A DNA stretch of 64,000 nucleotides from Deroplatys truncata (lineage: Eukaryota > Arthropoda > Insecta > Mantodea > Mantidae). Under the pieces are notes generated by a model. The model was not told where the DNA came from, made no database searches, and was given only the letters and a program-made list of their open reading frames with translations. The position numbers and the translations under genes were made by a program. Positions within the stretch are counted from its first letter, which is position 1; the number at the start of each line of letters is the position of its first letter. Positions 32,690 through 64,000 of this stretch are shown here, in pieces. Location of the stretch: positions 3,162,001 to 3,226,000 of the forward strand of contig CM060985.1 in assembly GCA_030765065.1 (NCBI GenBank). The letters are read 5' to 3'.

Positions 32690-34016
32690 ATGGTCAACAT
32701 CTTACTTATCACATGCAGATATTGTTACAACTCCCTCCGTACCTACACACCCAGTACATCCTGAACAGAGTGCAGCAATAGGGGCAGCATATGGTCAACA
32801 TCTTACTTATCACATGCAGATATTGTTACAATTCCCTCCGTACCTAGACACCCAGGACATCCTGAACAGTGTGCAACAATAGGGGCAGCATATGGTCATC
32901 ATGTCACTTATCACATGCAGATATTGTTACAACAACTCCCTCCGTAACTACACACCCAGGACATCCTGAACAGAGTACAGCAATAGAGGCAGCATATGCT
33001 GAACATGTTACTAATCACATGCAGATATTGTTACAACTCCCTCCGTACGAACAAACCCAGGACATCCTGAACAGAGTGCTACAATGGGGGATGCATATGG
33101 TCAACATCTTACTTATCACATGCAGATATTGTTAAAACTCCCACCGTACCTAGACACCCAGGACATCCTGAACAGAATGCAACAGTAGGGGCAGCATATG
33201 GTCAACATCTTATTTATCACATGCAGATATTGTTACAACTCCTTCCCTACCTACACACCCAGGACATCCTGAAATGAGTGCAACAATAGAGGCTGCATAT
33301 GGTCAACATGTCACTTATCACATGCAGATATTGTTACAACTCCCTCCGTTCCTACACACCCAGGGCATCCTGACACAGTGCAACAATAGAGGCAGCATAT
33401 GGTCAACATGTCACTTATCACATGCAGATATTGTTACAACAACTCCCTCCGTACCTACACACCCAGGACATCCTGGAGAGAGTGCAACAATAGAGGCAGT
33501 TTATGGTCAACATGTTACTTATCACATGCAGATATTGTTACAACTCCCTCCGTACCTACACACCCAGGACATCCTGAACAGAGTGCAACAATAGCTGCAG
33601 CATATGGTAAACATGTTACTTATCACATGCAGATATTGTTACAACTCCCTCCGTACCTACACACCCAGGACATCCTGAACAGAGTGCAACAATAGAGGCA
33701 GCAAAATGACATCATCTTACTTATCACATGCAGATATTGTTAAAACAACTCCCTCAGTACCTACACACGCAGGACATCCTGAACAGAGTGCAACAATAGA
33801 GGCAGCATATGGTCAACATGTTACTTATCACATGCAGATACTGTTAAAACAACTCCCTCCGTACCTACACACCCAGGAAATCCTGAACAGAGTGCAACAA
33901 TAGAGGCAGCATATGGTCAACATGTTACTTATCACATGCAGATATTGTTACAACAACTCCCTCCGTAACTACACACCCAGGAAATCCTGAACGGAGTGTA
34001 ACAATAGAGGCAGCAT
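32690..34016 (+). repeat. Y0 module of the 16.4-kb HOR
   Basis: This is the first Y module. It matches Y1 at a constant 16428-bp shift (32869/49297, 33274/49702, 33399/49827, 33706/50134) with no length change. Landmarks are gaacagtgtgc, gggggatgc, aacagtaggg and gcaaaatgacatc. It runs directly into core1. The left edge is approximate, set where the 16428-bp relationship weakens. Confidence 0.82.
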
Positions 34017-37000
34017 ATGGTATACATGTTAATTATCACATGCAGATATTGGTACAACTCCCTCTGTACCTACACACCCAGGACATCCTGGACAGAGTGC
34101 AACAATAGAGGCAGCATATGGTCTACATGTTACTTATCACATGCAGATATTGTTACAACAACTCCCTCTGTACCTACACACCCAGGACATCCTGGACAGA
34201 GTGCAACAATAGAAGCACCATATGGTCAACATATTACTTATCACATGCAGAATTGTTACAAAAACTCCCTCTGTACCTACACACCCAGGACTCCTGAACA
34301 GAGTGCAACAATAGAGGCAGCATATGGTCAACATGTTACTTATCACATGGAGATATAGTTACAAATCCTTCCTAAGCTACACACCCAGGACATCCTGAAC
34401 AGAGTGCAACAATAGAGGCAGCATTAGGTTAACATGTTACTTATCACATGCAGATATTGTTACCACTCCCTCTGTACTTACACACCCAGGACATCCTGGA
34501 CAGAGTGCAACAATAGAGGCAGCATATGGTCAACATGTCACTTATCACATGGAGATATTGTTACAACTCCTTCTGTACCTACACATCCAGGACATGCTGG
34601 ACAGAGTGCAACAATAGAGGAAGCATATGGTCAACATGTCACTTATCACATGCAGATATTGTTACAACTCCCGCCGTACCTACACACCAAGGACATCATG
34701 AACAGAGTGCAACAATAGGGGCAGCATATGGTCAACATCTTACTTATCACATGCAGATATTGTTACAAATCCCTCCTTAGCTACACACCCAGGACATCAT
34801 GAACAGAGTGCAAGAATAGGGGCAGCATATGGTCAATATCTTACTTATCACATGCAGATATTGTTACAACTCCCTCCTTACCTACACACCCAGGACATCC
34901 TGGACAGCGTGCAGCAATAGGGGCAGCATATGGTCAACATGTCACTTATCACATGCAGATATTGTTACAACTCCCTCCGTACGAACACACCCAGGACATC
35001 CTGAACAGAGTGCAACAATAGGGGCAGCATATGGTCAACCTCTTACTTATCACATGCAGATATTGTTACAACTCCCACCGTACATAGACACCCAGGACAT
35101 CCTGAACAGAGTGCAACAATAGGGGCAGCATATGGTCAACATCTTATTTATCACATGCAGATATTCTTACAACTCCCTCCGTACCTACACACCCAGGACA
35201 TCCTGAACAGAGTGCAACAATAGAGGTAGAATATGGTCAACATGCTACTTATCACATGCAGATATTGTTACAACTCCCTCCGTACCTACACACCCAGGAC
35301 ATATTGAACAGAGTGCAACAATAGGGGCAGCATATGGTCAACATCTTACTTATCACATGCAGATATTGTTACAACTCCCTCCGTAACTACACACCCAGGA
35401 CATCCTGAACAGAGTACAGCAATAGAGGCAGCATATGCTGAACATGTTACTTATCACATGCAGATATTGTTACAACTCCCTCCGTACCTACACACACAGG
35501 ACATCCTGATCAGAGTGCAACAATAGAGGCAGCATATGGTCAAAATGTCACTTATCACATGCAGATATTGTTAAAACTCCCACCGTACCTAGACACCCAG
35601 GACATCCTGAACAGAATGCAACAATAGGGGCAGCATATGGTCAACATCTTATTTATCACATGCAGATGTTGTTACAACTCCCTCCGTTCCTACACACCCA
35701 GGACATCCTGACACAGTGCAACAATAGAGGCAGCATATGGTCTACATGTCACTTATCACATGCAGATATTGTTACAACGACTCCCTCCGTACCTACACAC
35801 CCAGGACATCCTGGAGAGAGTGCAACAATAGAGGCAGTTTATGGTCAACATGTTACTTATCACATGCAGATATTGTTACAACTCCCTCCGTACCTACACA
35901 CCCAGGACATCCTGAACAGAGTGCAACAATAGAGGCAGCATATGGTAAACATGTTACTTATCACATGCAGATATTGTTACAACTCCCTCCGTACCTACAC
36001 ACCCAGGTCATCCTGAACAGAGAGCAACAATAGAGGCAGCATATGGTCAACATGTTACTTATTACATGCAGATATTGTTAAAAAAACTCCCTCCGTACCA
36101 ACACATCCAGGACAACCTGAACAGAGTGCAACAATAGAGGCAGCATATGGTCAACATGTTACTTATTACATGCAGATATTGTTAAAAAAACTCCCTCCGT
36201 ACCAACACATCCAGGACAACATGAACAGAGTGCAACAATACAGGAAGCATATGGTCAACATGTTACTTATAACATGCAGATATTGTTACAACTCCCTCCA
36301 TACCTACACACCCAGGACATCCTGAACAGAGTGCCACAATAGAGGCAGCATATGGTCTACATGTCACTTATCACATGCAGATATTGTTACAACTCCCTCC
36401 GTACGAACACACCCAGGACATCCTGAACAGAGTGCAACAATAGGGGCAGCATATGGTCAACCTCTTACTTATCACATGCAGATATTGTTACAACTCCCAC
36501 CGTACATAGACACCCAGGACATCCTGAACAGAGTGCAACAATAGGGGCAGCATATGGTCAACATCTTATGTATCACATGCAGATATTGTTACAACTCTCT
36601 CCGTACCTACACACCCAGGACATCCTGAACAGAGTGCAACAATAGAGATAGCATATGGTCAACATGTTACTTATCACATGCAGATATTGTTACAACTCCC
36701 TCCGTACCTACACACCCAGGACATCATGAACAGAGTGCAACAATAGGGGCAGCACATGGTCAACATCTTACTTATCACATGCAGATATTGTTAAAACTCC
36801 CTCCGTACCTACACACCCAGTACATCCTGAACAGAGTGCAGCAATAGGGGCAGCATATGGTCAACATCTTACTTATCACATGCAGATATTGTAACAATTC
36901 CCTCCGTACCTAGACACCCAGGACATCCTGAACAGAGTGCAACAATAGGGGCAGCATATGGTCATCATGTCACTTATCACATGCAGATATTGTTACAACA

Positions 37001-37463
37001 ACTCCCTCCGTAACTACACACCCAGGACATCCTGAACAGAGTACAGCAATAGAGGCAGCATATGCTGAACATGTTACTTATCACATGCAGATATTGTTAA
37101 ACTCCCTCCGTACGAACACACCCAGGACATCCTGAACAGAGTGCTACAATGGGGGATGCATATGGTCAACATCTTACTTATCACATGAAGATATTGTAAA
37201 AACTCCCACCGTACCTAGACACCCAGGACATCCTGAACAGAATGCAACAATAGGGGCAGCATATGGTCAACATCTTATTTATCACATGCAGATATTGTTA
37301 CAACTCCTTCCCTACCTACACACCCAGGACATCCTGAAATGAGTGCAACAATAGAGGCTGCATATGGTCGACATGTCACTTATCACATGCAGATATTGTT
37401 ACAACTCCCTCCGTTCCTACACACCTAGGACATCCTGACACAGTGCAACAATAGAGGCAGCAT

Positions 37464-37663
37464 ATGGTCAACATCTTATTTATCACATGCAGATATTGTT
37501 ACAACTCCTTCCCTACCTACACACCCAGGACATCCTGACACAGTGCAACAATAGGGGCAGCATATGGTCAACATCTTATTTATCACATGCAGATATTGTT
37601 ACAACTCCTTCCCTACCTACACACCCAGGACATCCTGACACAGTGCAACAATAGAGGCAGCAT
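37464..37663 (+). repeat. Pair of 100-bp monomers ending gacacagtgc (core1)
   Basis: Two adjacent monomers have cctgacacagtgc instead of cctgaacagagtgc and are 100 bp long (starts 37464, 37564, next 37664). Both carry ctccttccctacc. The pair recurs at 46181-46380, 53892-54091 and 62710-62909, so it is part of every core. It is an example of a 1-bp indel, which would break any coding frame. Confidence 0.86.
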
Positions 37664-39794
37664 ATGGTCAACATGTCACTTATCACATGCAGATATTGTT
37701 ACAACAACTCCCTCCGTACCTACACACCCAGGACTCCTGAACAGAGTGCAACAATAGAGGCAGCATATGGTCAACATGTTACTTATCACATGGAGATATA
37801 GTTACAAATCCTTCCTAAGCTACACACCCAGGACATCCTGAACAGAGTGCAACAATAGAGGCAGCATTAGGTTAACATGTCACTTATCACATGTAGATAT
37901 TGTTACAACTCCTTCTGTACCTACACACCCAGGACATCCTGGACAGAGTCAAACAATAGGGGCAGCATATGGTCAACATGTTACTTATCACATGCAGATA
38001 TTGTTACCACTCCCTCTGTACTTACACACCCAGGACATCCTGGACAGAGTGCAACAATAGAGGCAGCATATGGTCAACATGTCACTTATCACATGGAGAT
38101 ATTGTTACAACTCCTTCTGTACCTACACATCCAGGACATGCTGGACAGAGTGCAACAATAGAGGAAGCATATGGTCAAGATGTCACTTATCACATGCAGA
38201 TATTGTTACAACTCCCGCCGTACCTACACACCCAGGACATCATGAACAGAGTGCAAGAATAGGGGCAGCATATGGTCAATATCTTACTTATCACATGCAG
38301 ATATTGTTACAACTCCCTCCTTACCTACACACCCAGGACATCCTGGACAGCGTGCAGCAATAGGGGCAGCATATGGTCAACATGTCACTTATCACATGCA
38401 GATATTGTTACAACTCCCTCCGTACGAACACACCCAGGACATCCTGAACAGAGTGCAACAATAGGGGCAGCATATGGTCAACCTCTTACTTATCACATGC
38501 AGATATTGTTACAACTCCCACCGTACCTAGACACCCAGGACATCCTGAACAGAGTGCAACAATAGGGGCAGCATATGGTCAACCTCTTACTTATCACATG
38601 CAGATATTCTTACAACTCCCTCCGTACCTACACACCCAGGACATCCTGAACAGAGTGCAACAATAGAGGTAGAATATGGTCAACATGTTACTTATCACAT
38701 GCAGATATTGTTACAACTCCCTCCGTACCTACACACCCAGGACATATTGAACAGAGTGCAACAATAGGGGCAGCATATGGTCAACATCTTACTTATCACA
38801 TGCAGATATTGTTACAACTCCCTCCGTAACTACACACCCAGGACATCCTGAACAGAGTACAGCAATAGAGGCAGCATATGCTGAACATGTTACTTATCAC
38901 ATGCAGATATTGTTACAACTCCCTCCGTACCTACACACCCAGGACATATTGAACAGAGTGCAACAATAGGGGCAGCATATGGTCAACATCTTACTTATCA
39001 CATGCAGATATTGTTACAACTCCCTCCGTAACTACACACCCAGGACATCCTGATCAGAGTGCAACAATAGAGGCAGCATATGGTCAAAATGTCACTTATC
39101 ACATGCAGATATTGTTAAAACTCCCACCGTACCTAGACACCCAGGACATCCTGAACAGAATGCAACAATAGGGGCAGCATATGGTCAACATCTTATTTAT
39201 CACATGCAGATATTGTTACAACTCCCTCCGTTCCTACACACCCAGGACATCCTGACACAGTGCAACAATAGAGGCAGCATATGGTCTACATGTCACTTAT
39301 CACATGCAGATATTGTTACAACGACTCCCTCCGTACCTACACACCCAGGACATCCTGGAGAGAGTGCAACAATAGAGGCAGTTTATGGTCAACATGTTAC
39401 TTATCACATGCAGATATTGTTACAACTCCCTCCGTACCTACACACCCAGGACATCCTGAACAGAGTGCAACAATAGAGGCAGCAAATGGTAAACATGTTA
39501 CTTATCACATGCAGATATTGTTACAACTCCCTCCGTACCTACACACCCAGGTCATCCTGAACAGAGAGCAACAATAGAGGCAGCATATGGTCAACATGTT
39601 ACTTATTACATGCAGATATTGTTAAAAAAACTCCCTCCGTACCAACACATCCAGGACAACCTGAACAGAGTGCAACAATAGAGGCAGCATATGGTCAACA
39701 TGTTACTTATTACATGCAGATATTGTTAAAAAAACTCCCTCCGTACCAACACATCCAGGACAACATGAACAGAGTGCCACAATAGAGGCAGCAT

Positions 39795-40299
39795 ATGGTC
39801 TACATGTTACTTATCACATGCAGATATTGTTTCAACTCCCTCCGTACGAACACACCCAGGACATCCTGGACAGAGTGCAGCAATAGGGGCAGCATATGGC
39901 CAACATGTCACTTATCACATGCAGATATTGTTACAACTCCCTCCGTACGAACACACCCAGGACATCCTGGACAGAGTGCAACAATAGGGGCAGCATATGG
40001 CCAACATGTTACTTATCACATGCAGATATTGTTTCAACTCCCTCCGTACGAACACACCCAGGACATCCTGGACAGAGTGCAGCAATAGAGGCAGCATATG
40101 GCCAACATGTTACTTATCACATGCAGATATTGTTTCAACTCCCTCCGTACGAACACACCCAGGACATCCTGGACAGAGTGCAGCAATAGGGGCAGCATAT
40201 GGTCAACATGTCACTTATCACATGGAGATATTGTTACAACTCCCTCCGTACGAACACACCCAGGACATCCTGGACAGAGTGCAACAATAGGGGCAGCAT
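39795..40299 (+). repeat. Five-monomer run with ccgtacgaacac (core1)
   Basis: Five 101-bp monomers start at 39795, 39896, 39997, 40098 and 40199. They share ccgtacgaacac and tggacagagtgc, and several have atggccaacatg and gtttcaactccc. Core2 (48512-48915) and core3 (56223-56626) hold only four. Each monomer contains the palindrome CGTACG, giving two CpG dinucleotides. Confidence 0.88.
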
Positions 40300-40492
40300 A
40301 TGGTCAACATCTTATGTATCACATGCAGATATTGTTACAACTCTCTCCGTACCTACACACCCAGGACATCCTGAACAGAGTGCAACAATAGAGATAGCAT
40401 ATGGTCAACATGTTACTTATCACATGCAGATATTGTTACAACTCCCTCCGTACCTACACACCCAGGACATCCTGAACAGAGTGCAACAATAG

Positions 40493-42733
40493 GGGCAGCA
40501 CATGGTCAACATCTTACTTATCACATGCAGATATTGTTAAAACTCCCTCCGTACCTACACACCCAGGACATCCTGAACAGAGTGCAACAATAGGGGCAGC
40601 ATATGGTCATCATGTCACTTATCACATGCAGATATTGTTACAACTCCCTCCGTAACTACACACCCAGGACATCCTGAACAGAGTACAGCAATAGAGGCAG
40701 CATATGCTGAACATGTTACTTATCACATGCAGATATTGTTAAACTCCCTCCGTACGAACACACCCAGGACATCCTGAACAGAGTGCTACAATGGGGGATG
40801 CATATGGTCAACATCTTACTTATCACATGCAGATATTGTAAAAACTCCCACCGTACCTAGACACCCAGGACATCCTGAACAGAATGCAACAATAGGGGCA
40901 GCATATGGCCAACATGTCACTTATCACATGCAGATATTGTTACAACTCCCTCCGTACCTACACACCCAGGACATCATGAACAGAGTGCAACAATAGGGGC
41001 AGCACATGGTCAACATCTTACTTATCACATGCAGATATTGTTAAAACTCCCTCCGTACCTACACACCCAGTACATCCTGAACAGAGTGCAGCAATAGGGG
41101 CAGCATATGGTCAACATCTTACTTATCACATGCAGATATTGTAACAATTCCCTCCGTACCTAGACACCCAGGACATCCTGAACAGAGTGCAACAATAGAG
41201 GGAACATATGGTCAACATGTTACTTATAACATGTAGATATTGTTACAACAACTCCCTCCATACCTACACACCCAGGACATCCTTAACAGAGTGCCATAAT
41301 AGAGGCAGCATATGGTCAACATGTCACTTATCACATGCAAATATTGTTACAACTCCCTCTGTACCTACACACCCAGGACATCATGGACAGAGTGCAACAA
41401 TAGAGGCAGTATATGGTCTACATGTTACTTATCACATGCAAATATTGTTACAACTCCCTCTGTACCTACACACCCAGGACATCATGGACAGAGTGCAACA
41501 ATAGAGGCAGCATATGGTCTACATGTTACTTATCACATGCAGATATTGTTAAGACATCTCCATCTGTACCTACACACCCAGGACATCCTGAACAGAGTGC
41601 AACAATAGAGGCACATATGGTCAACATGTCACTTGTCACATGGAGATATTGTTACAACTCCTTCTGTACCTACACACCCAGGACATCCTGGACAGAGTCA
41701 AACAATAGGGGCAGCATATGGTCAACATGTTACTTATCACATGCAGATATTGTTACCACTCCCTCTGTACTTACACACCCACGACATCCTGGACAGAGTG
41801 CAACAATAGAGGCAGCATATGGTCAACATGTCACTTATCACATGGAGATATAGTTACAACTCCTTCTGTACCTACACATCCAGGACATCCTGGACAGAGT
41901 GGAACATTAGGGGCAGCATATGGTCAACATCTTACTTATCACATGCAGATATTGTTACAACTCCCTCCGTACCTACACACCCAGCACATCATGAACAGAG
42001 TGCAACAATAGGGGCAGAAAATGGTCAACATCTTACTTATCACATTCAGATATTGTTACAACTCCCTCCGTACCTACACTTCCAGGACATCCTAAACAGA
42101 GTGCAACAATAGGGGCAGAAAATGGTCAACATCTTACTTATCACATTCAGATATTGTTACAACTCCCTCCGTACCTACACACCCAGGACATCATGAACAG
42201 AGTGCAACAATAGGGGCAGCATATGGTCAACATCTTACTTATCACATGCAGATATTGTTACAACTCCCTCCTTACCTACACACCCAGGACATCCTGGACA
42301 GCGTGCAGCAATAGGGGCAGCATATTGTCAACATGTCACTTATCACATGCAGATATTGTTACAACTCCCTCCGTACGAACACACCCAGGACATCCTGAAC
42401 AGAGTGCAACAATAGGGGCAGCATATGGTCAACCTCTTACTTATCACATGCAGATATTGTTACAACTCCCACCGTACCTAGACACCCAGGACATCCTAAA
42501 CAGAGTGCAACAATAGGGGCAGCATATGGTCAACATGTTACTTATCACATGCAGATATTGTTACAACAACTCCCTCCGTAACTACACACCCAGGAAATCC
42601 TGAACGGAGTGTAACAATAGAGGCAGCATATGGTCAACATGTTACTTATCACATGCAGATATTGTTACAACAACTCCCTCCGTAACTACACACCCAGGAA
42701 ATCCTGAACGGAGTGTAACAATAGAGGCAGCAT
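40493..42733 (+). repeat. X1 module of the 16.4-kb HOR (~2.24 kb)
   Basis: X1 takes the place that Y1 occupies after core2. Its centre (41208-42112) matches S-type sequence at 4666-5468, including ccttaacagagtgccataat and gttaagacatctcc. It matches X2 at a shift of 16327 up to about 42.1 kb and 16529 from 42.2 kb. It ends with two copies of a ccgtaactac/gaaatcctgaacggagtg monomer (starts near 42530 and 42630), where Y has one. Confidence 0.86.
42021..42222 (+). repeat. Pair of cattcag monomers (X1)
   Basis: Two adjacent monomers are preceded by gcagaaaatgg and have cacattcagatattg in place of cacatgcagatattg. The equivalent in X2 (58348-58751) has four copies. The pair is not seen in the S units, where gcagaatatgg and cacatgcag are found, so it arose within the X lineage. 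Confidence 0.87.
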
Positions 42734-45700
42734 ATGGTATACATGTTAATTATCACATGCAGATATTGGTACAACTCCCTCTGTACCTACACACCCAGGA
42801 CATCCTGGACAGAGTGCAACAATAGAGGCAGCATATGGTCTACATGTTACTTATCACATGCAGATATTGTTACAACAACTCCCTCTGTACCTACACACCC
42901 AGGACATCCTGGACAGAGTGCAACAATAGAAGCACCATATGGTCAACATATTACTTATCACATGCAGAATTGTTACAAAAACTCCCTCTGTACCTACACA
43001 CCCAGGACTTGTGAACAGAGTGCAACAATAGAGGCAGCATATGGTCAACATGTTACTTATCACATGGAGATATAGTTACAAATCCTTCCTAAGCTACACA
43101 CCCAGGACATCCTGAACAGAGTGCAACAATAGAGGCAGCATTAGGTTAACATGTTACTTATCACATGCAGATATTGTTACCACTCCCTCTGTACTTACAC
43201 ACCCAGGACATCCTGGACAGAGTGCAACAATAGAGGCAGCATATGGTCAACATGTCACTTATCACATGGAGATATTGTTACAACTCCTTCTGTACCTACA
43301 CATCCAGGACATGCTGGACAGAGTGCAACAATAGAGGAAGCATATGGTCAACATGTCACTTATCACATGCAGATATTGTTACAACTCCCGCCGTACCTAC
43401 ACACCAAGGACATCATGAACAGAGTGCAACAATAGGGGCAGCATATGGTCAACATCTTACTTATCACATGCAGATATTGTTACAAATCCCTCCTTAGCTA
43501 CACACCCAGGACATCATGAACAGAGTGCAAGAATAGGGGCAGCATATGGTCAATATCTTACTTATCACATGCAGATATTGTTACAACTCCCTCCTTACCT
43601 ACACACCCAGGACATCCTGGACAGCGTGCAGCAATAGGGGCAGCATATGGTCAACATGTCACTTATCACATGCAGATATTGTTACAACTCCCTCCGTACG
43701 AACACACCCAGGACATCCTGAACAGAGTGCAACAATAGGGGCAGCATATGGTCAACCTCTTACTTATCACATGCAGATATTGTTACAACTCCCACCGTAC
43801 ATAGACACCCAGGACATCCTGAACAGAGTGCAACAATAGGGGCAGCATATGGTCAACATCTTATTTATCACATGCAGATATTCTTACAACTCCCTCCGTA
43901 CCTACACACCCAGGACATCCTGAACAGAGTGCAACAATAGAGGTAGAATATGGTCAACATGCTACTTATCACATGCAGATATTGTTACAACTCCCTCCGT
44001 ACCTACACACCCAGGACATATTGAACAGAGTGCAACAATAGGGGCAGCATATGGTCAACATCTTACTTATCACATGCAGATATTGTTACAACTCCCTCCG
44101 TAACTACACACCCAGGACATCCTGAACAGAGTACAGCAATAGAGGCAGCATATGCTGAACATGTTACTTATCACATGCAGATATTGTTACAACTCCCTCC
44201 GTACCTACACACACAGGACATCCTGATCAGAGTGCAACAATAGAGGCAGCATATGGTCAAAATGTCACTTATCACATGCAGATATTGTTAAAACTCCCAC
44301 CGTACCTAGACACCCAGGACATCCTGAACAGAATGCAACAATAGGGGCAGCATATGGTCAACATCTTATTTATCACATGCAGATGTTGTTACAACTCCCT
44401 CCGTTCCTACACACCCAGGACATCCTGACACAGTGCAACAATAGAGGCAGCATATGGTCTACATGTCACTTATCACATGCAGATATTGTTACAACGACTC
44501 CCTCCGTACCTACACACCCAGGACATCCTGGAGAGAGTGCAACAATAGAGGCAGTTTATGGTCAACATGTTACTTATCACATGCAGATATTGTTACAACT
44601 CCCTCCGTACCTACACACCCAGGACATCCTGAACAGAGTGCAACAATAGAGGCAGCATATGGTAAACATGTTACTTATCACATGCAGATATTGTTACAAC
44701 TCCCTCCGTACCTACACACCCAGGTCATCCTGAACAGAGAGCAACAATAGAGGCAGCATATGGTCAACATGTTACTTATTACATGCAGATATTGTTAAAA
44801 AAACTCCCTCCGTACCAACACATCCAGGACAACCTGAACAGAGTGCAACAATAGAGGCAGCATATGGTCAACATGTTACTTATTAGATGCAGATATTGTT
44901 AAAAAAACTCCCTCCGTACCAACACATCCAGGACAACATGAACAGAGTGCAACAATACAGGAAGCATATGGTCAACATGTTACTTATAACATGCAGATAT
45001 TGTTACAACTCCCTCCATACCTACACACCCAGGACATCCTGAACAGAGTGCCACAATAGAGGCAGCATATGGTCTACATGTCACTTATCACATGCAGATA
45101 TTGTTACAACTCCCTCCGTACGAACACACCCAGGACATCCTGAACAGAGTGCAACAATAGGGGCAGCATATGGTCAACCTCTTACTTATCACATGCAGAT
45201 ATTGTTACAACTCCCACCGTACATAGACACCCAGGACATCCTGAACAGAGTGCAACAATAGGGGCAGCATATGGTCAACATCTTATGTATCACATGCAGA
45301 TATTGTTACAACTCTCTCCGTACCTACACACCCAGGACATCCTGAACAGAGTGCAACAATAGAGATAGCATATGGTCAACATGTTACTTATCACATGCAG
45401 ATATTGTTACAACTCCCTCCGTACCTACACACCCAGGACATCATGAACAGAGTGCAACAATAGGGGCAGCACATGGTCAACATCTTACTTATCACATGCA
45501 GATATTGTTAAAACTCCCTCCGTACCTACACACCCAGTACATCCTGAACAGAGTGCAGCAATAGGGGCAGCATATGGTCAACATCTTACTTATCACATGC
45601 AGATATTGTAACAATTCCCTCCGTACCTAGACACCCAGGACATCCTGAACAGAGTGCAACAATAGGGGCAGCATATGGTCATCATGTCACTTATCACATG

Positions 45701-49108: not shown

Positions 49109-50444
49109 GGGCAGCACATGGTCAACATCTTACTTATCACATGCAGATATTGTTACAACTCCCTCCGTACCTACACACCCAGTACATCCTGAACAGAGTG
49201 CAGCAATAGGGGCAGCATATGGTCAACATCTTACTTATCACATGCAGATATTGTTACAATTCCCTCCGTACCTAGACACCCAGGACATCCTGAACAGTGT
49301 GCAACAATAGGGGCAGCATATGGTCATCATGTCACTTATCACATGCAGATATTGTTACAACAACTCCCTCCGTAACTACACACCCAGGACATCCTGAACA
49401 GAGTACAGCAATAGAGGCAGCATATGCTGAACATGTTACTAATCACATGCAGATATTGTTACAACTCCCTCCGTACGAACAAACCCAGGACATCCTGAAC
49501 AGAGTGCTACAATGGGGGATGCATATGGTCAACATCTTACTTATCACATGCAGATATTGTTAAAACTCCCACCGTACCTAGACACCCAGGACATCCTGAA
49601 CAGAATGCAACAGTAGGGGCAGCATATGGTCAACATCTTATTTATCACATGCAGATATTGTTACAACTCCTTCCCTACCTACACACCCAGGACATCCTGA
49701 AATGAGTGCAACAATAGAGGCTGCATATGGTCAACATGTCACTTATCACATGCAGATATTGTTACAACTCCCTCCGTTCCTACACACCCAGGGCATCCTG
49801 ACACAGTGCAACAATAGAGGCAGCATATGGTCAACATGTCACTTATCACATGCAGATATTGTTACAACAACTCCCTCCGTACCTACACACCCAGGACATC
49901 CTGGAGAGAGTGCAACAATAGAGGCAGTTTATGGTCAACATGTTACTTATCACATGCAGATATTGTTACAACTCCCTCCGTACCTACACACCCAGGACAT
50001 CCTGAACAGAGTGCAACAATAGCTGCAGCATATGGTAAACATGTTACTTATCACATGCAGATATTGTTACAACTCCCTCCGTACCTACACACCCAGGACA
50101 TCCTGAACAGAGTGCAACAATAGAGGCAGCAAAATGACATCATCTTACTTATCACATGCAGATATTGTTAAAACAACTCCCTCAGTACCTACACACGCAG
50201 GACATCCTGAACAGAGTGCAACAATAGAGGCAGCATATGGTCAACATGTTACTTATCACATGCAGATACTGTTAAAACAACTCCCTCCGTACCTACACAC
50301 CCAGGAAATCCTGAACAGAGTGCAACAATAGAGGCAGCATATGGTCAACATGTTACTTATCACATGCAGATATTGTTACAACAACTCCCTCCGTAACTAC
50401 ACACCCAGGAAATCCTGAACGGAGTGTAACAATAGAGGCAGCAT
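49109..50444 (+). repeat. Y1 module of the 16.4-kb HOR (~1.34 kb)
   Basis: Y1 matches Y0 at 16428 bp and the S-unit segments at 11859 and 23634. It carries cccagtacatcc, gaacagtgtgcaac, gggggatgc, aacagtaggg and gcaaaatgacatc in the same order, and joins core3 at 50445 exactly as Y0 joins core1. The first monomer after the core is shared with X, so the true switch point between X and Y lies some 30-100 bp inside. Confidence 0.87.
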
Positions 50445-53400
50445 ATGGTATACATGTTAATTATCACATGCAGATATTGGTACAACTCCCTCTGTACCTA
50501 CACACCCAGGACATCCTGGACAGAGTGCAACAATAGAGGCAGCATATGGTCTACATGTTACTTATCACATGCAGATATTGTTACAACAACTCCCTCTGTA
50601 CCTACACACCCAGGACATCCTGGACAGAGTGCAACAATAGAAGCACCATATGGTCAACATATTACTTATCACATGCAGAATTGTTACAAAAACTCCCTCT
50701 GTACCTACACACCCAGGACTCCTGAACAGAGTGCAACAATAGAGGCAGCATATGGTCAACATGTTACTTATCACATGGAGATATAGTTACAAATCCTTCC
50801 TAAGCTACACACCCAGGACATCCTGAACAGAGTGCAACAATAGAGGCAGCATTAGGTTAACATGTTACTTATCACATGCAGATATTGTTACCACTCCCTC
50901 TGTACTTACACACCCAGGACATCCTGGACAGAGTGCAACAATAGAGGCAGCATATGGTCAACATGTCACTTATCACATGGAGATATTGTTACAACTCCTT
51001 CTGTACCTACACATCCAGGACATGCTGGACAGAGTGCAACAATAGAGGAAGCATATGGTCAACATGTCACTTATCACATGCAGATATTGTTACAACTCCC
51101 GCCGTACCTACACACCAAGGACATCATGAACAGAGTGCAACAATAGGGGCAGCATATGGTCAACATCTTACTTATCACATGCAGATATTGTTACAAATCC
51201 CTCCTTAGCTACACACCCAGGACATCATGAACAGAGTGCAAGAATAGGGGCAGCATATGGTCAATATCTTACTTATCACATGCAGATATTGTTACAACTC
51301 CCTCCTTACCTACACACCCAGGACATCCTGGACAGCGTGCAGCAATAGGGGCAGCATATGGTCAACATGTCACTTATCACATGCAGATATTGTTACAACT
51401 CCCTCCGTACGAACACACCCAGGACATCCTGAACAGAGTGCAACAATAGGGGCAGCATATGGTCAACCTCTTACTTATCACATGCAGATATTGTTACAAC
51501 TCCCACCGTACATAGACACCCAGGACATCCTGAACAGAGTGCAACAATAGGGGCAGCATATGGTCAACATCTTATTTATCACATGCAGATATTCTTACAA
51601 CTCCCTCCGTACCTACACACCCAGGACATCCTGAACAGAGTGCAACAATAGAGGTAGAATATGGTCAACATGCTACTTATCACATGCAGATATTGTTACA
51701 ACTCCCTCCGTACCTACACACCCAGGACATATTGAACAGAGTGCAACAATAGGGGCAGCATATGGTCAACATCTTACTTATCACATGCAGATATTGTTAC
51801 AACTCCCTCCGTAACTACACACCCAGGACATCCTGAACAGAGTACAGCAATAGAGGCAGCATATGCTGAACATGTTACTTATCACATGCAGATATTGTTA
51901 CAACTCCCTCCGTACCTACACACACAGGACATCCTGATCAGAGTGCAACAATAGAGGCAGCATATGGTCAAAATGTCACTTATCACATGCAGATATTGTT
52001 AAAACTCCCACCGTACCTAGACACCCAGGACATCCTGAACAGAATGCAACAATAGGGGCAGCATATGGTCAACATCTTATTTATCACATGCAGATGTTGT
52101 TACAACTCCCTCCGTTCCTACACACCCAGGACATCCTGACACAGTGCAACAATAGAGGCAGCATATGGTCTACATGTCACTTATCACATGCAGATATTGT
52201 TACAACGACTCCCTCCGTACCTACACACCCAGGACATCCTGGAGAGAGTGCAACAATAGAGGCAGTTTATGGTCAACATGTTACTTATCACATGCAGATA
52301 TTGTTACAACTCCCTCCGTACCTACACACCCAGGACATCCTGAACAGAGTGCAACAATAGAGGCAGCATATGGTAAACATGTTACTTATCACATGCAGAT
52401 ATTGTTACAACTCCCTCCGTACCTACACACCCAGGTCATCCTGAACAGAGAGCAACAATAGAGGCAGCATATGGTCAACATGTTACTTATTACATGCAGA
52501 TATTGTTAAAAAAACTCCCTCCGTACCAACACATCCAGGACAACCTGAACAGAGTGCAACAATAGAGGCAGCATATGGTCAACATGTTACTTATTACATG
52601 CAGATATTGTTAAAAAAACTCCCTCCGTACCAACACATCCAGGACAACATGAACAGAGTGCAACAATACAGGAAGCATATGGTCAACATGTTACTTATAA
52701 CATGCAGATATTGTTACAACTCCCTCCATACCTACACACCCAGGACATCCTGAACAGAGTGCCACAATAGAGGCAGCATATGGTCTACATGTCACTTATC
52801 ACATGCAGATATTGTTACAACTCCCTCCGTACGAACACACCCAGGACATCCTGAACAGAGTGCAACAATAGGGGCAGCATATGGTCAACCTCTTACTTAT
52901 CACATGCAGATATTGTTACAACTCCCACCGTACATAGACACCCAGGACATCCTGAACAGAGTGCAACAATAGGGGCAGCATATGGTCAACATCTTATGTA
53001 TCACATGCAGATATTGTTACAACTCTCTCCGTACCTACACACCCAGGACATCCTGAACAGAGTGCAACAATAGAGATAGCATATGGTCAACATGTTACTT
53101 ATCACATGCAGATATTGTTACAACTCCCTCCGTACCTACACACCCAGGACATCATGAACAGAGTGCAACAATAGGGGCAGCACATGGTCAACATCTTACT
53201 TATCACATGCAGATATTGTTAAAACTCCCTCCGTACCTACACACCCAGTACATCCTGAACAGAGTGCAGCAATAGGGGCAGCATATGGTCAACATCTTAC
53301 TTATCACATGCAGATATTGTAACAATTCCCTCCGTACCTAGACACCCAGGACATCCTGAACAGAGTGCAACAATAGGGGCAGCATATGGTCATCATGTCA

Positions 53401-56400
53401 CTTATCACATGCAGATATTGTTACAACAACTCCCTCCGTAACTACACACCCAGGACATCCTGAACAGAGTACAGCAATAGAGGCAGCATATGCTGAACAT
53501 GTTACTTATCACATGCAGATATTGTTAAACTCCCTCCGTACGAACACACCCAGGACATCCTGAACAGAGTGCTACAATGGGGGATGCATATGGTCAACAT
53601 CTTACTTATCACATGAAGATATTGTAAAAACTCCCACCGTACCTAGACACCCAGGACATCCTGAACAGAATGCAACAATAGGGGCAGCATATGGTCAACA
53701 TCTTATTTATCACATGCAGATATTGTTACAACTCCTTCCCTACCTACACACCCAGGACATCCTGAAATGAGTGCAACAATAGAGGCTGCATATGGTCGAC
53801 ATGTCACTTATCACATGCAGATATTGTTACAACTCCCTCCGTTCCTACACACCTAGGACATCCTGACACAGTGCAACAATAGAGGCAGCATATGGTCAAC
53901 ATCTTATTTATCACATGCAGATATTGTTACAACTCCTTCCCTACCTACACACCCAGGACATCCTGACACAGTGCAACAATAGGGGCAGCATATGGTCAAC
54001 ATCTTATTTATCACATGCAGATATTGTTACAACTCCTTCCCTACCTACACACCCAGGACATCCTGACACAGTGCAACAATAGAGGCAGCATATGGTCAAC
54101 ATGTCACTTATCACATGCAGATATTGTTACAACAACTCCCTCCGTACCTACACACCCAGGACTCCTGAACAGAGTGCAACAATAGAGGCAGCATATGGTC
54201 AACATGTTACTTATCACATGGAGATATAGTTACAAATCCTTCCTAAGCTACACACCCAGGACATCCTGAACAGAGTGCAACAATAGAGGCAGCATTAGGT
54301 TAACATGTCACTTATCACATGTAGATATTGTTACAACTCCTTCTGTACCTACACACCCAGGACATCCTGGACAGAGTCAAACAATAGGGGCAGCATATGG
54401 TCAACATGTTACTTATCACATGCAGATATTGTTACCACTCCCTCTGTACTTACACACCCAGGACATCCTGGACAGAGTGCAACAATAGAGGCAGCATATG
54501 GTCAACATGTCACTTATCACATGGAGATATTGTTACAACTCCTTCTGTACCTACACATCCAGGACATGCTGGACAGAGTGCAACAATAGAGGAAGCATAT
54601 GGTCAAGATGTCACTTATCACATGCAGATATTGTTACAACTCCCGCCGTACCTACACACCCAGGACATCATGAACAGAGTGCAAGAATAGGGGCAGCATA
54701 TGGTCAATATCTTACTTATCACATGCAGATATTGTTACAACTCCCTCCTTACCTACACACCCAGGACATCCTGGACAGCGTGCAGCAATAGGGGCAGCAT
54801 ATGGTCAACATGTCACTTATCACATGCAGATATTGTTACAACTCCCTCCGTACGAACACACCCAGGACATCCTGAACAGAGTGCAACAATAGGGGCAGCA
54901 TATGGTCAACCTCTTACTTATCACATGCAGATATTGTTACAACTCCCACCGTACCTAGACACCCAGGACATCCTGAACAGAGTGCAACAATAGGGGCAGC
55001 ATATGGTCAACCTCTTACTTATCACATGCAGATATTCTTACAACTCCCTCCGTACCTACACACCCAGGACATCCTGAACAGAGTGCAACAATAGAGGTAG
55101 AATATGGTCAACATGTTACTTATCACATGCAGATATTGTTACAACTCCCTCCGTACCTACACACCCAGGACATATTGAACAGAGTGCAACAATAGGGGCA
55201 GCATATGGTCAACATCTTACTTATCACATGCAGATATTGTTACAACTCCCTCCGTAACTACACACCCAGGACATCCTGAACAGAGTACAGCAATAGAGGC
55301 AGCATATGCTGAACATGTTACTTATCACATGCAGATATTGTTACAACTCCCTCCGTACCTACACACCCAGGACATATTGAACAGAGTGCAACAATAGGGG
55401 CAGCATATGGTCAACATCTTACTTATCACATGCAGATATTGTTACAACTCCCTCCGTAACTACACACCCAGGACATCCTGATCAGAGTGCAAAAATAGAG
55501 GCAGCATATGGTCAAAATGTCACTTATCACATGCAGATATTGTTAAAACTCCCACCGTACCTAGACACCCAGGACATCCTGAACAGAATGCAACAATAGG
55601 GGCAGCATATGGTCAACATCTTATTTATCACATGCAGATATTGTTACAACTCCCTCCGTTCCTACACACCCAGGACATCCTGACACAGTGCAACAATAGA
55701 GGCAGCATATGGTCTACATGTCACTTATCACATGCAGATATTGTTACAACGACTCCCTCCGTACCTACACACCCAGGACATCCTGGAGAGAGTGCAACAA
55801 TAGAGGCAGTTTATGGTCAACATGTTACTTATCACATGCAGATATTGTTACAACTCCCTCCGTACCTACACACCCAGGACATCCTGAACAGAGTGCAACA
55901 ATAGAGGCAGCATATGGTAAACATGTTACTTATCACATGCAGATATTGTTACAACTCCCTCCGTACCTACACACCCAGGTCATCCTGAACAGAGAGCAAC
56001 AATAGAGGCAGCATATGGTCAACATGTTACTTATTACATGCAGATATTGTTAAAAAAACTCCCTCCGTACCAACACATCCAGGACAACCTGAACAGAGTG
56101 CAACAATAGAGGCAGCATATGGTCAACATGTTACTTATTACATGCAGATATTGTTAAAAAAACTCCCTCCGTACCAACACATCCAGGACAACATGAACAG
56201 AGTGCCACAATAGAGGCAGCATATGGTCTACATGTTACTTATCACATGCAGATATTGTTTCAACTCCCTCCGTACGAACACACCCAGGACATCCTGGACA
56301 GAGTGCAGCAATAGGGGCAGCATATGGCCAACATGTCACTTATCACATGCAGATATTGTTACAACTCCCTCCGTACGAACACACCCAGGACATCCTGGAC

Positions 56401-56819
56401 AGAGTGCAACAATAGGGGCAGCATATGGCCAACATGTTACTTATCACATGCAGATATTGTTTCAACTCCCTCCGTACGAACACACCCAGGACATCCTGGA
56501 CAGAGTGCAGCAATAGGGGCAGCATATGGTCAACATGTCACTTATCACATGGAGATATTGTTACAACTCCCTCCGTACGAACACACCCAGGACATCCTGG
56601 ACAGAGTGCAACAATAGGGGCAGCATATGGTCAACATCTTATGTATCACATGCAGATATTGTTACAACTCTCTCCGTACCTACACACCCAGGACATCCTG
56701 AACAGAGTGCAACAATAGAGATAGCATATGGTCAACATGTTACTTATCACATGCAGATATTGTTACAACTCCCTCCGTACCTACACACCCAGGACATCCT
56801 GAACAGAGTGCAACAATAG
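50445..56819 (+). repeat. Core3 of the HOR (6375 bp)
   Basis: It shares the catgaag marker (A at 53616) and the G at 54425 with core1, not with core2. Like core2 it has four, not five, of the ccgtacgaacac monomers (56223-56626). It matches core2 at a uniform shift of 7711, so no monomer has been gained or lost between them. A small private change is gtgcaaaaatag near 55488. It is followed by X2. Confidence 0.88.
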
Positions 56820-59262
56820 GGGCAGCACATGGTCAACATCTTACTTATCACATGCAGATATTGTTAAAACTCCCTCCGTACCTACACACCCAGGACATCC
56901 TGAACAGAGTGCAACAATAGGGGCAGCATATGGTCATCATGTCACTTATCACATGCAGATATTGTTACAACTCCCTCCGTAACTACACACCCAGGACATC
57001 CTGAACAGAGTACAGCAATAGAGGCAGCATATGCTGAACATGTTACTTATCACATGCAGATATTGTTAAACTCCCTCCGTACGAACACACCCAGGACATC
57101 CTGAACAGAGTGCTACAATGGGGGATGCATATGGTCAACATCTTACTTATCACATGCAGATATTGTAAAAACTCCCACCGTACCTAGACACCCAGGACAT
57201 CCTGAACAGAATGCAACAATAGGGGCAGCATATGGCCAACATGTCACTTATCACATGCAGATATTGTTACAACTCCCTCCGTACCTACACACCCAGGACA
57301 TCATGAACAGAGTGCAACAATAGGGGCAGCACATGGTCAACATCTTACTTATCACATGCAGATATTGTTAAAACTCCCTCCGTACCTACACACCCAGTAC
57401 ATCCTGAACAGAGTGCAGCAATAGGGGCAGCATATGGTCAACATCTTACTTATCACATGCAGATATTGTAACAATTCCCTCCGTACCTAGACACCCAGGA
57501 CATCCTGAACAGAGTGCAACAATAGAGGGAACATATGGTCAACATGTTACTTATAACATGTAGATATTGTTACAACAACTCCCTCCATACCTACACACCC
57601 AGGACATCCTTAACAGAGTGCCATAATAGAGGCAGCATATGGTCAACATGTCACTTATCACATGCAAATATTGTTACAACTCCCTCTGTACCTACACACC
57701 CAGGACATCATGGACAGAGTGCAACAATAGAGGCAGTATATGGTCTACATGTTACTTATCACATGCAAATATTGTTACAACTCCCTCTGTACCTACACAC
57801 CCAGGACATCATGGACAGAGTGCAACAATAGAGGCAGCATATGGTCTACATGTTACTTATCACATGCAGATATTGTTAAGACATCTCCATCTGTACCTAC
57901 ACACCCAGGACATCCTGAACAGAGTGCAACAATAGAGGCACATATGGTCAACATGTCACTTGTCACATGGAGATATTGTTACAACTCCTTCTGTACCTAC
58001 ACACCCAGGACATCCTGGACAGAGTCAAACAATAGGGGCAGCATATGGTCAACATGTTACTTATCACATGCAGATATTGTTACCACTCCCTCTGTACTTA
58101 CACACCCACGACATCCTGGACAGAGTGCAACAATAGAGGCAGCATATGGTCAACATGTCACTTATCACATGGAGATATAGTTACAACTCCTTCTGTACCT
58201 ACACATCCAGGACATCCTGGACAGAGTGGAACATTAGGGGCAGCATATGGTCAACATCTTACTTATCACATGCAGATATTGTTACAACTCCCTCCGTACC
58301 TACACACCCAGCACATCATGAACAGAGTGCAACAATAGGGGCAGAAAATGGTCAACATCTTACTTATCACATTCAGATATTGTTACAACTCCCTCCGTAC
58401 CTACACTTCCAGGACATCCTAAACAGAGTGCAACAATAGGGGCAGAAAATGGTCAACATCTTACTTATCACATTCAGATATTGTTACAACTCCCTCCGTA
58501 CCTACACTTCCAGGACATCCTAAACAGAGTGCAACAATAGGGGCAGAAAATGGTCAACATCTTACTTATCACATTCAGATATTGTTACAACTCCCTCCGT
58601 ACCTACACTTCCAGGACATCCTAAACAGAGTGCAACAATAGGGGCAGAAAATGGTCAACATCTTACTTATCACATTCAGATATTGTTACAACTCCCTCCT
58701 TACCTACACACCCAGGACATCATGAACAGAGTGCAACAATAGGGGCAGCATATGGTCAACATCTTACTTATCACATGCAGATATTGTTACAACTCCCTCC
58801 GTACGAACACACCCAGGACATCCTGGACAGCGTGCAGCAATAGGGGCAGCATATTGTCAACATGTCACTTATCACATGCAGATATTGTTACAACTCCCTC
58901 CGTACGAACACACCCAGGACATCCTGAACAGAGTGCAACAATAGGGGCAGCATATGGTCAACCTCTTACTTATCACATGCAGATATTGTTACAACTCCCA
59001 CCGTACCTAGACACCCAGGACATCCTAAACAGAGTGCAACAATAGGGGCAGCATAAGGTCAACATGTTACTTATCACATGCAGATATTGTTACAACAACT
59101 CCCTCCGTAACTACACACCCAGGAAATCCTGAACGGAGTGTAACAATAGAGGCAGCATATGGTCAACATGTTACTTATCACATGCAGATATTGTTACAAC
59201 AACTCCCTCCGTAACTACACACCCAGGAAATCCTGAACGGAGTGTAACAATAGAGGCAGCAT
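56820..59262 (+). repeat. X2 module of the 16.4-kb HOR (~2.44 kb)
   Basis: X2 follows core3 as X1 follows core1. It is 202 bp longer because the cattcag monomer was amplified from two to four copies. Another change is at 58752, where the monomer has ccgtacgaacac and X1 has ccttacctacac, which suggests local exchange with a neighbouring monomer type. A private change is gcataaggtc near 59052. Confidence 0.86.
58348..58751 (+). repeat. Four-monomer cattcag run (X2)
   Basis: Four successive 101-bp monomers start at 58348, 58449, 58550 and 58651. All are introduced by gcagaaaatgg and contain cacattcag; the first three also have ctacacttccagg and cctaaacag. X1 has two. The two added units are near-identical, which points to a recent expansion. 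Confidence 0.88.
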
Positions 59263-62200
59263 ATGGTATACATGTTAATTATCACATGCAGATATTGGTA
59301 CAACTCCCTCTGTACCTACACACCCAGGACATCCTGGACAGAGTGCAACAATAGAGGCAGCATATGGTCTACATGTTACTTATCACATGCAGATATTGTT
59401 ACAACAACTCCCTCTGTACCTACACACCCAGGACATCCTGGACAGAGTGCAACAATAGAAGCACCATATGGTCAACATATTACTTATCACATGCAGAATT
59501 GTTACAAAAACTCCCTCTGTACCTACACACCCAGGACTCCTGAACAGAGTGCAACAATAGAGGCAGCATATGGTCAACATGTTACTTATCACATGGAGAT
59601 ATAGTTACAAATCCTTCCTAAGCTACACACCCAGGACATCCTGAACAGAGTGCAACAATAGAGGCAGCATTAGGTTAACATGTTACTTATCACATGCAGA
59701 TATTGTTACCACTCCCTCTGTACTTACACACCCAGGACATCCTGGACAGAGTGCAACAATAGAGGCAGCATATGGTCAACATGTCACTTATCACATGGAG
59801 ATATTGTTACAACTCCTTCTGTACCTACACATCCAGGACATGCTGGACAGAGTGCAACAATAGAGGAAGCATATGGTCAACATGTCACTTATCACATGCA
59901 GATATTGTTACAACTCCCGCCGTACCTACACACCAAGGACATCATGAACAGAGTGCAACAATAGGGGCAGCATATGGTCAACATCTTACTTATCACATGC
60001 AGATATTGTTACAAATCCCTCCTTAGCTACACACCCAGGACATCATGAACAGAGTGCAAGAATAGGGGCAGCATATGGTCAATATCTTACTTATCACATG
60101 CAGATATTGTTACAACTCCCTCCTTACCTACACACCCAGGACATCCTGGACAGCGTGCAGCAATAGGGGCAGCATATGGTCAACATGTCACTTATCACAT
60201 GCAGATATTGTTACAACTCCCTCCGTACGAACACACCCAGGACATCCTGAACAGAGTGCAACAATAGGGGCAGCATATGGTCAACCTCTTACTTATCACA
60301 TGCAGATATTGTTACAACTCCCACCGTACATAGACACCCAGGACATCCTGAACAGAGTGCAACAATAGGGGCAGCATATGGTCAACATCTTATTTATCAC
60401 ATGCAGATATTCTTACAACTCCCTCCGTACCTACACACCCAGGACATCCTGAACAGAGTGCAACAATAGAGGTAGAATATGGTCAACATGCTACTTATCA
60501 CATGCAGATATTGTTACAACTCCCTCCGTACCTACACACCCAGGACATATTGAACAGAGTGCAACAATAGGGGCAGCATATGGTCAACATCTTACTTATC
60601 ACATGCAGATATTGTTACAACTCCCTCCGTAACTACACACCCAGGACATCCTGAACAGAGTACAGCAATAGAGGCAGCATATGCTGAACATGTTACTTAT
60701 CACATGCAGATATTGTTACAACTCCCTCCGTACCTACACACACAGGACATCCTGATCAGAGTGCAACAATAGAGGCAGCATATGGTCAAAATGTCACTTA
60801 TCACATGCAGATATTGTTAAAACTCCCACCGTACCTAGACACCCAGGACATCCTGAACAGAATGCAACAATAGGGGCAGCATATGGTCAACATCTTATTT
60901 ATCACATGCAGATGTTGTTACAACTCCCTCCGTTCCTACACACCCAGGACATCCTGACACAGTGCAACAATAGAGGCAGCATATGGTCTACATGTCACTT
61001 ATCACATGCAGATATTGTTACAACGACTCCCTCCGTACCTACACACCCAGGACATCCTGGAGAGAGTGCAACAATAGAGGCAGTTTATGGTCAACATGTT
61101 ACTTATCACATGCAGATATTGTTACAACTCCCTCCGTACCTACACACCCAGGACATCCTGAACAGAGTGCAACAATAGAGGCAGCATATGGTAAACATGT
61201 TACTTATCACATGCAGATATTGTTACAACTCCCTCCGTACCTACACACCCAGGTCATCCTGAACAGAGAGCAACAATAGAGGCAGCATATGGTCAACATG
61301 TTACTTATTACATGCAGATATTGTTAAAAAAACTCCCTCCGTACCAACACATCCAGGACAACCTGAACAGAGTGCAACAATAGAGGCAGCATATGGTCAA
61401 CATGTTACTTATTACATGCAGATATTGTTAAAAAAACTCCCTCCGTACCAACACATCCAGGACAACATGAACAGAGTGCAACAATACAGGAAGCATATGG
61501 TCAACATGTTACTTATAACATGCAGATATTGTTACAACTCCCTCCATACCTACACACCCAGGACATCCTGAACAGAGTGCCACAATAGAGGCAGCATATG
61601 GTCTACATGTCACTTATCACATGCAGATATTGTTACAACTCCCTCCGTACGAACACACCCAGGACATCCTGAACAGAGTGCAACAATAGGGGCAGCATAT
61701 GGTCAACCTCTTACTTATCACATGCAGATATTGTTACAACTCCCACCGTACATAGACACCCAGGACATCCTGAACAGAGTGCAACAATAGGGGCAGCATA
61801 TGGTCAACATCTTATGTATCACATGCAGATATTGTTACAACTCTCTCCGTACCTACACACCCAGGACATCCTGAACAGAGTGCAACAATAGAGATAGCAT
61901 ATGGTCAACATGTTACTTATCACATGCAGATATTGTTACAACTCCCTCCGTACCTACACACCCAGGACATCATGAACAGAGTGCAACAATAGGGGCAGCA
62001 CATGGTCAACATCTTACTTATCACATGCAGATATTGTTAAAACTCCCTCCGTACCTACACACCCAGTACATCCTGAACAGAGTGCAGCAATAGGGGCAGC
62101 ATATGGTCAACATCTTACTTATCACATGCAGATATTGTAACAATTCCCTCCGTACCTAGACACCCAGGACATCCTGAACAGAGTGCAACAATAGGGGCAG

Positions 62201-64000
62201 CATATGGTCATCATGTCACTTATCACATGCAGATATTGTTACAACAACTCCCTCCGTAACTACACACCCAGGACATCCTGAACAGAGTACAGCAATAGAG
62301 GCAGCATATGCTGAACATGTTACTTATCACATGCAGATATTGTTAAACTCCCTCCGTACGAACACACCCAGGACATCCTGAACAGAGTGCTACAATGGGG
62401 GATGCATATGGTCAACATCTTACTTATCACATGCAGATATTGTAAAAACTCCCACCGTACCTAGACACCCAGGACATCCTGAACAGAATGCAACAATAGG
62501 GGCAGCATATGGTCAACATCTTATTTATCACATGCAGATATTGTTACAACTCCTTCCCTACCTACACACCCAGGACATCCTGAAATGAGTGCAACAATAG
62601 AGGCTGCATATGGTCGACATGTCACTTATCACATGCAGATATTGTTACAACTCCCTCCGTTCCTACACACCTAGGACATCCTGACACAGTGCAACAATAG
62701 AGGCAGCATATGGTCAACATCTTATTTATCACATGCAGATATTGTTACAACTCCTTCCCTACCTACACACCCAGGACATCCTGACACAGTGCAACAATAG
62801 GGGCAGCATATGGTCAACATCTTATTTATCACATGCAGATATTGTTACAACTCCTTCCCTACCTACACACCCAGGACATCCTGACACAGTGCAACAATAG
62901 AGGCAGCATATGGTCAACATGTCACTTATCACATGCAGATATTGTTACAACAACTCCCTCCGTACCTACACACCCAGGACTCCTGAACAGAGTGCAACAA
63001 TAGAGGCAGCATATGGTCAACATGTTACTTATCACATGGAGATATAGTTACAAATCCTTCCTAAGCTACACACCCAGGACATCCTGAACAGAGTGCAACA
63101 ATAGAGGCAGCATTAGGTTAACATGTCACTTATCACATGTAGATATTGTTACAACTCCTTCTGTACCTACACACCCAGGACATCCTGGACAGAGTCAAAC
63201 AATAGGGGCAGCATATGGTCAACATGTTACTTATCACATGCAAATATTGTTACCACTCCCTCTGTACTTACACACCCAGGACATCCTGGACAGAGTGCAA
63301 CAATAGAGGCAGCATATGGTCAACATGTCACTTATCACATGGAGATATTGTTACAACTCCTTCTGTACCTACACATCCAGGACATGCTGGACAGAGTGCA
63401 ACAATAGAGGAAGCATATGGTCAACATGTCACTTATCACATGCAGATATTGTTACAACTCCCGCCGTACCTACACACCCAGGACATCATGAACAGAGTGC
63501 AAGAATAGGGGCAGCATATGGTCAATATCTTACTTATCACATGCAGATATTGTTACAACTCCCTCCTTACCTACACACCCAGGACATCCTGGACAGCGTG
63601 CAGCAATAGGGGCAGCATATGGTCAACATGTCACTTATCACATGCAGATATTGTTACAACTCCCTCCGTACGAACACACCCAGGACATCCTGAACAGAGT
63701 GCAACAATAGGGGCAGCATATGGTCAACCTCTTACTTATCACATGCAGATATTGTTACAACTCCCACCGTACCTAGACACCCAGGACATCCTGAACAGAG
63801 TGCAACAATAGGGGCAGCATATGGTCAACCTCTTACTTATCACATGCAGATATTCTTACAACTCCCTCCGTACCTACACACCCAGGACATCCTGAACAGA
63901 GTGCAACAATAGAGGTAGAATATGGTCAACATGTTACTTATCACATGCAGATATTGTTACAACTCCCTCCGTACCTACACACCCAGGACATATTGAACAG
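59263..64000 (+). repeat. Core4 of the HOR (partial, cut by window end)
   Basis: It opens with the same core-start landmark and matches core3 at a shift of 8818 and core2 at 16529. It shares C at 62434 and A at 63243 with core2, as expected if the repeat alternates. One difference from all three earlier cores is atggtcaacatgtc at 63418 where they have atggtcaagatgtc. The window ends inside the ggacatattgaacag monomer, so whether Y follows cannot be seen. Confidence 0.87.

Follow-up and report, generated by a model that had tools for sequence, protein, structure and literature searches.

In excerpts of the published account of the maize satellite CentC at centromere 10, recent higher-order repeats (HORs) are adjacent two-copy duplications with chimeric end monomers; the youngest one with a date arose when 10 monomers were duplicated side by side, and one monomer has been lost via 28 identical nucleotides (PMC4806543). 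Among the alpha satellites, a human 52-mer and an orangutan 59-mer are, in the parts of the two reports that were available, considered by their authors to be the longest HORs in human and in primates, respectively (PMC12385485, PMC11276891). Models of HOR growth by unequal exchange and by break-induced replication both allow, in the sections of their description at hand, out-of-register tandem duplication and nested structures (PMC8997354). The goose satellite AFA-HinfI-S is given, again in excerpt, a 101-bp unit, 60% GC and a conserved HinfI site per unit (PMC6435179). Here we describe a satellite block in 64,000 nucleotides of the mantis Deroplatys truncata (hereafter the window; C11:3162001-3226000, where C11 is the 200-Mb contig CM060985.1 of the 4.29-Gb, 818-contig assembly GCA_030765065.1). 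Very probably, the block arose when a satellite array underwent two tandem duplications, one nested in the other. Its order of parts, its joins with their counts and the differences between its copies can be read directly, and are presented first.

The whole window is filled by one head-to-tail satellite with a monomer of 101/104 bp. From 32690 onward the parts, all on the + strand, follow the order Y-core-X-core-Y-core-X-core, with a period of 16,428 bp or 162 monomers. As the preliminary description of this DNA had it, a landmark of the core, a 91-bp stretch, lies at 34017, 42734, 50445 and 59263, at spacings of 8717, 7711 and 8818 bp, and the monomer types bear out the alternation noted there, X standing after cores 1 and 3 and Y after core 2 and before core 1. 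Copy A of the 16.4-kb unit (32690..49117) comprises Y0 (32728..33895), which is regarded as the old left flank of the core and matches Y1 at an offset of 16428, core1 (33896..40539), X1 (40540..42612) and core2 (42613..49155). Core1 has one extra monomer near its end, in agreement with an earlier remark on five versus four monomers. Copy B (49118..64000, ending at about 65747 beyond the window) comprises Y1 (49156..50323), core3 (50324..56866), X2 (56867..59141; two extra monomers relative to X1) and core4 (59142..64000, continuing past the window to about 65785). By monomer type, Y reads 52-75-54-76-55-77-78-57-104-59-79-80 and X reads 121-106-109-122-51-52-123-124-125-125-40-41-42-43-126-127-51-48-72-128-129; X2 departs from this string in having type 127 three times and type 131 in place of 48. 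The longest ungapped diagonal in the window is at the 16,428-bp lag (32444-40209 versus 48872-56637, 99.82%). At a lag of 162 monomers there is a run of 74 successive monomers of the same type, whereas 30 shuffles of the order gave runs of at most 3 at any lag. The two 16.4-kb copies show 8 differences in 14,554 aligned bases, a count that omits 40089-40209 and 42171-42277, where single monomers have been gained or lost. An older and more diverged duplication is also visible inside the core, with lags of 3,443-3,544 bp and pieces of 715-787 bp at 99.4-99.5%.

Beyond the window the analysis covers 264 kb of C11 around it, including fetched neighbouring sequence. Past 64000, core4 continues like the other cores, apart from one extra monomer near 64544, and is followed by X3 (about 65785 to about 67782) and then by other satellite, here called Z, whose monomers are not those of Y or of the core start. 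X2 and X3 match at 0.999 over 1 kb. Y had been expected after core4, an expectation that failed; no fifth core follows, the 584-bp core start being found at 98-100% only in the four cores and at 3157318, to the left of the window, while to its right the best match of the core-start query reaches 95%, at 3238848. The preliminary description had also named X after core4 as a finding that would overturn its proposal. This was mis-specified, since a single duplication of Y-core-X-core must leave the old right flank, X, after the last core, and X at this place is what nested duplications predict.

Two joins are central to the argument. At junction 2 (49118..49155, + strand), where the end of core2 meets Y1, the sequence is that of the core3 end as far as 49155 and that of Y0 from 49118, with the switch lying within 38 bp common to both parents of the join. 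It is in register with the 101-bp period, its partners are alike at 240 of the 246 bases directly to its left, and it is single-copy in the 264 kb (401- or 531-bp query). Junction 1, between X and core2 (42518..42646, + strand), follows X3 to 42536, then passes through a chimeric 104-bp monomer and continues as core. Its second copy, between X2 and core4 (59047..59175, + strand), has 1 mismatch to the first. The chimeric monomer (42543-42646 and 59072-59175) is common to both X-to-core joins and, among monomers of the same length, is absent elsewhere in the 264 kb; because both joins carry it, the X-to-core join would be older than the 16.4-kb event. The Y-to-core join has 10 copies in the 264 kb, and since 8 of these are outside the block it is taken as the old order. 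Over the same 264 kb, the native core-to-X join was found 3 times, X-to-core 2 times, core-to-Y once and X-to-Z once, where the nested model predicts 3, 2, 1 and 1.

From these joins we propose a starting order of Y-core-X-Z. A first event would have doubled core-X (8.7 kb, 86 monomers) to give Y-core-X-core-X-Z, thereby creating the X-to-core join of junction 1. A second event would then have doubled Y-core-X-core (16.4 kb, 162 monomers), once, to give Y-core-X-core-Y-core-X-core-X-Z with the core-end-to-Y join of junction 2. Gain or loss of single monomers and a handful of base changes would have followed. As the mechanism, either sister chromatids probably exchanged homologous DNA while misaligned, or break-induced replication restarted behind the fork; the sequence by itself would fit both. 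The preliminary description had proposed that the amplified unit was the 16.4-kb double block and not the 8-kb block. In one respect this stands, as the double block appears to have been copied as one piece after an earlier duplication of the 8-kb block; it was, however, copied once only.

The four cores were compared over 4,854 shared bp, in which seven positions vary. Cores 1 and 3 show 0 differences, core4 differs from each of them at 3, cores 2 and 4 differ at 5, and core2 differs from core1 and from core3 at 6 each. Two of the variable sites split cores 1+3 from 2+4, none favours either of the other two splits, four are private to core2 and one is private to core4. The grouping of 1+3 versus 2+4 is the tree that the nested-duplication model would predict. 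The two informative sites are base markers reported previously and found again as given: 37188 and 53616 are A versus C at 45905 and 62434, and 37997 and 54425 are G versus A at 46714 and 63243. At the first (+3171), cores 1 and 3 have the derived base, A (C in 3 of 3 matching monomers elsewhere), and at the second (+3980) cores 2 and 4 have it, again A (G in 9 of 9). No difference separates X1 from X2 in the 2,091 bp from 40090.

Several observations weigh against the nested duplications or the order given to them. The grouping of the cores draws on just two sites. The earlier expectation that cores 1 and 3, and cores 2 and 4, would be more alike than neighbours fails in part on raw identity, cores 2 and 4 being no closer than cores 3 and 4; owing to the private changes of core2, core4 has 5 differences to it but only 3 to core3. 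At +4162 (63425 in core4), core4 has the C of 9 of 9 other monomers and cores 1-3 have G, a small conflict best read as a conversion or reversal. Four differences separate X1 from X3 between 40200 and 42536; X3 differs from X1 and X2 alike at these sites, and the three that can be polarised are changes in X3, so that no change shared by X1 and X2 is seen. Differences number 7 in 6,193 bp for core1-core2, 7 in 6,543 for core2-core3 and 3 in 4,859 each for core3-core4 and core1-core4, which against the 8 in 14,554 of the 16.4-kb copies give one-sided p values of 0.13, 0.15, 0.55 and 0.55; divergence counts alone would not mark the first duplication as the older. Finally, junction 1 is not a plain switch, for a core-like monomer is present there in excess, which the simple model would leave unexplained; the chimeric monomer there has 3 differences to the first core monomer and 5 to the last monomer of Y0. 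We infer the order of events mainly from the joins, together with the two shared bases.

Markers that do not fit the alternation had been put down to later exchanges. Exchange between cores as the cause of every such marker is rejected, most being private changes of a single core. The statement that core4 alone differs was borne out at 63425, and this base may be an exchange.

It is improbable that a 7.7-kb core-Y repeat came first, with X later replacing one Y by conversion or insertion before the double block was duplicated. X and Y do take the same position between cores, and the spacing across core2-Y1-core3 is the corresponding 7,711 bp, but one extra event is required, the supposed old join of core to Y occurs once versus three times for core to X, and X natively continues into other satellite after core4. 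We consider it decidedly improbable that the block is an assembly artefact, in which two haplotypes, or one molecule twice, were joined end to end. Satellite arrays are hard to assemble, the copy number is taken on trust from the assembly, and in a 12.65-kb pair of copies to the right, described below, differences are confined to 7 bp, so that assembler error is conceivable there. The 16.4-kb copies, in contrast, differ at the 8 bases mentioned and by gains of one and two monomers; the longest exact repeat within the window, at 6,375 bp, is shorter than common long reads; and at junction 2 the register is kept over 38 shared bp, with no kilobase overlap. That a 16.4-kb HOR was amplified along the array, with Y following core4, is scarcely credible: the double block recurs with its X and Y parts in phase, but core4 runs into X3 and other satellite, which refutes this for the present assembly, and at double the lag, or 324 monomers, runs in the 264 kb reach 10 at most.

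The nested duplications are not the only large ones in the array. At a lag of 17,591 bp, 124 of 124 monomers stand in the same order with 4 differences in 12,607 bp (C11:3142591-3155197 versus 3160182-3172788); the second copy of this 17.6-kb tandem duplication straddles the left edge of the window, from shortly before it to window position 10788. At 12,647 bp, adjacent copies (C11:3239684-3252227 and 3252331-3264874) agree in 124 of 125 monomers and show 6 differences, all within 7 bp at 3251805-3251811, being otherwise identical; this pair is either very recent or an assembly doubling. At 34,619 bp, 62 of 62 monomers stand in the same order, with 2 differences in 6,324 bp. Five shuffles of the 264 kb gave runs of at most 4, and at twice each of these three lags, as at twice 162 and 163 monomers, the longest run is at most 10. 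All three look like two-copy events, the reading extending about 1 kb past the second copy in the case of the 12,647-bp pair. It is possible, though doubtful, that most growth of the array comes from whole blocks of about 75-170 monomers being doubled and not from short units being added, and that this was recent enough for much of the array to be legible still as a nested record of such events.

Two further repeats were noted. A 300-bp landmark has four mismatch-free copies in C11:2892001-2942000, at 2906001, 2916874, 2925293 and 2938087; the spacing is uneven (10873, 8419 and 12794 bp) and that part of the array holds more than two copies. Window positions 2136-26395 contain a repeat that is older and in two copies; its offsets are about 11.8-13.0 kb, and it is broken by losses of one, two and eight monomers.

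Among the 630 complete monomers in the window, 437 are of 101 bp and 131 of 104 bp, with a mean identity to the consensus of 93.7%. There are 201 distinct monomer sequences, or 131 types after pooling those no more than one edit apart. The satellite is CpG depleted (observed/expected 0.19), its consensus 12-mers are confined to one strand in the 264 kb, and 92% of window bases lie inside ungapped repeats of at least 1 kb at 99% identity or more. A 28-bp piece of the monomer has 1,124 occurrences assembly-wide, on one strand throughout, with 772 of them within the 264 kb and 87 in another 50 kb; the first 100 places listed are all on C11, starting at 2889431. Samples of C11 place the left edge of the array somewhere in 2851500-2889431 and its right edge somewhere in 3281500-3300001, giving a size of about 0.39-0.45 Mb. 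Judged from the 28-bp counts, the array is probably a single locus in the 4.29-Gb genome, which suggests that it is not a genome-wide centromere satellite; any centromere role, of which CENP-A occupancy would be the mark, is putative. The CENP-B box, with the motif TTCG-N4-A-N2-CGGG, has 0 matches on either strand of the window.

A prokaryotic or viral origin is rejected, with no exact 31-mer found in prokaryotic-genome or viral contigs and no 22-mer in viral contigs. There were no phage matches to the 2,001 bp searched and no plasmid matches to the 7,001 bp searched. Three open reading frames of at least 150 amino acids (bacterial code) are present in the window, all left of the block; no tRNA was found in the window and no Rfam family at gathering score in 32444-42444, the sole part searched. 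Twelve short pieces, taken on both strands, gave no published satellite of the same sequence in the full-text literature searched, which covers few subscription journals or sequence databases. Contig C16 of the same assembly holds numerous COX1-like pieces that resemble nuclear mitochondrial copies, several of them grouped in repeated clusters, for example at 611231289-611358903 and 672461346-672974945. In the best matches to COX1 the reading frame is interrupted by TGA alone, the pattern of mitochondrial DNA in which this codon stands for tryptophan, and this would point to an animal.

Homogenisation of arrays often masks whether a satellite has grown by many small slips or by a few large exchanges. 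Two successive large duplications that can be ordered from their scars would offer a test case for models of satellite growth, and the block is also a check on how assemblers handle near-identical 16-kb copies. If the array does grow by such block doublings, counting native and chimeric joins would order events without a molecular clock; were this to hold generally, rare and very large exchanges would set the pace for single-locus satellites. We regard the block as an ordinary case of a satellite growing through large recombination events. This is a known mode of satellite evolution and no new kind of element; the junctions are unusually clear here, and only the unit size (162 monomers) and the legibility stand out.

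In comparison with described classes, the 16.4-kb copies resemble an HOR in being far more alike (8 in 14,554) than the monomers of the unit, the median edit distance between window monomers being 11 in about 101 with self-pairs included. An HOR array has many homogenised copies, however, and this unit has two; two copies of a 162-monomer unit are better called a duplication. The adjacent copies and the new join at 49118-49155 are those of a tandem segmental duplication. Alpha satellite is rejected as an identity, the monomer here being 101/104 bp and not 171 bp, as is goose AFA-HinfI-S, which has the same length but differs from the 43.9% GC and the 38 HinfI sites in 64 kb seen here. The human 52-mer and orangutan 59-mer, as far as their excerpted descriptions go, share with this block very long units and near-identical copies (0.2% and 0.1%), the human one also in two copies, but they consist of 171-bp alpha satellite and the orangutan one has eight copies, as against 162 monomers of 101 bp in two copies here. 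We do not claim this unit as the longest known. Both models of HOR growth, as outlined in the sections available, would fit this locus. The nearest printed case that we found is maize CentC, which, in the excerpts of its account, likewise has adjacent two-copy duplications with chimeric monomers at their ends; the mantis block differs in that its unit spans 162 monomers, its 101-bp sequence is unrelated and one of its duplications is nested in the other.

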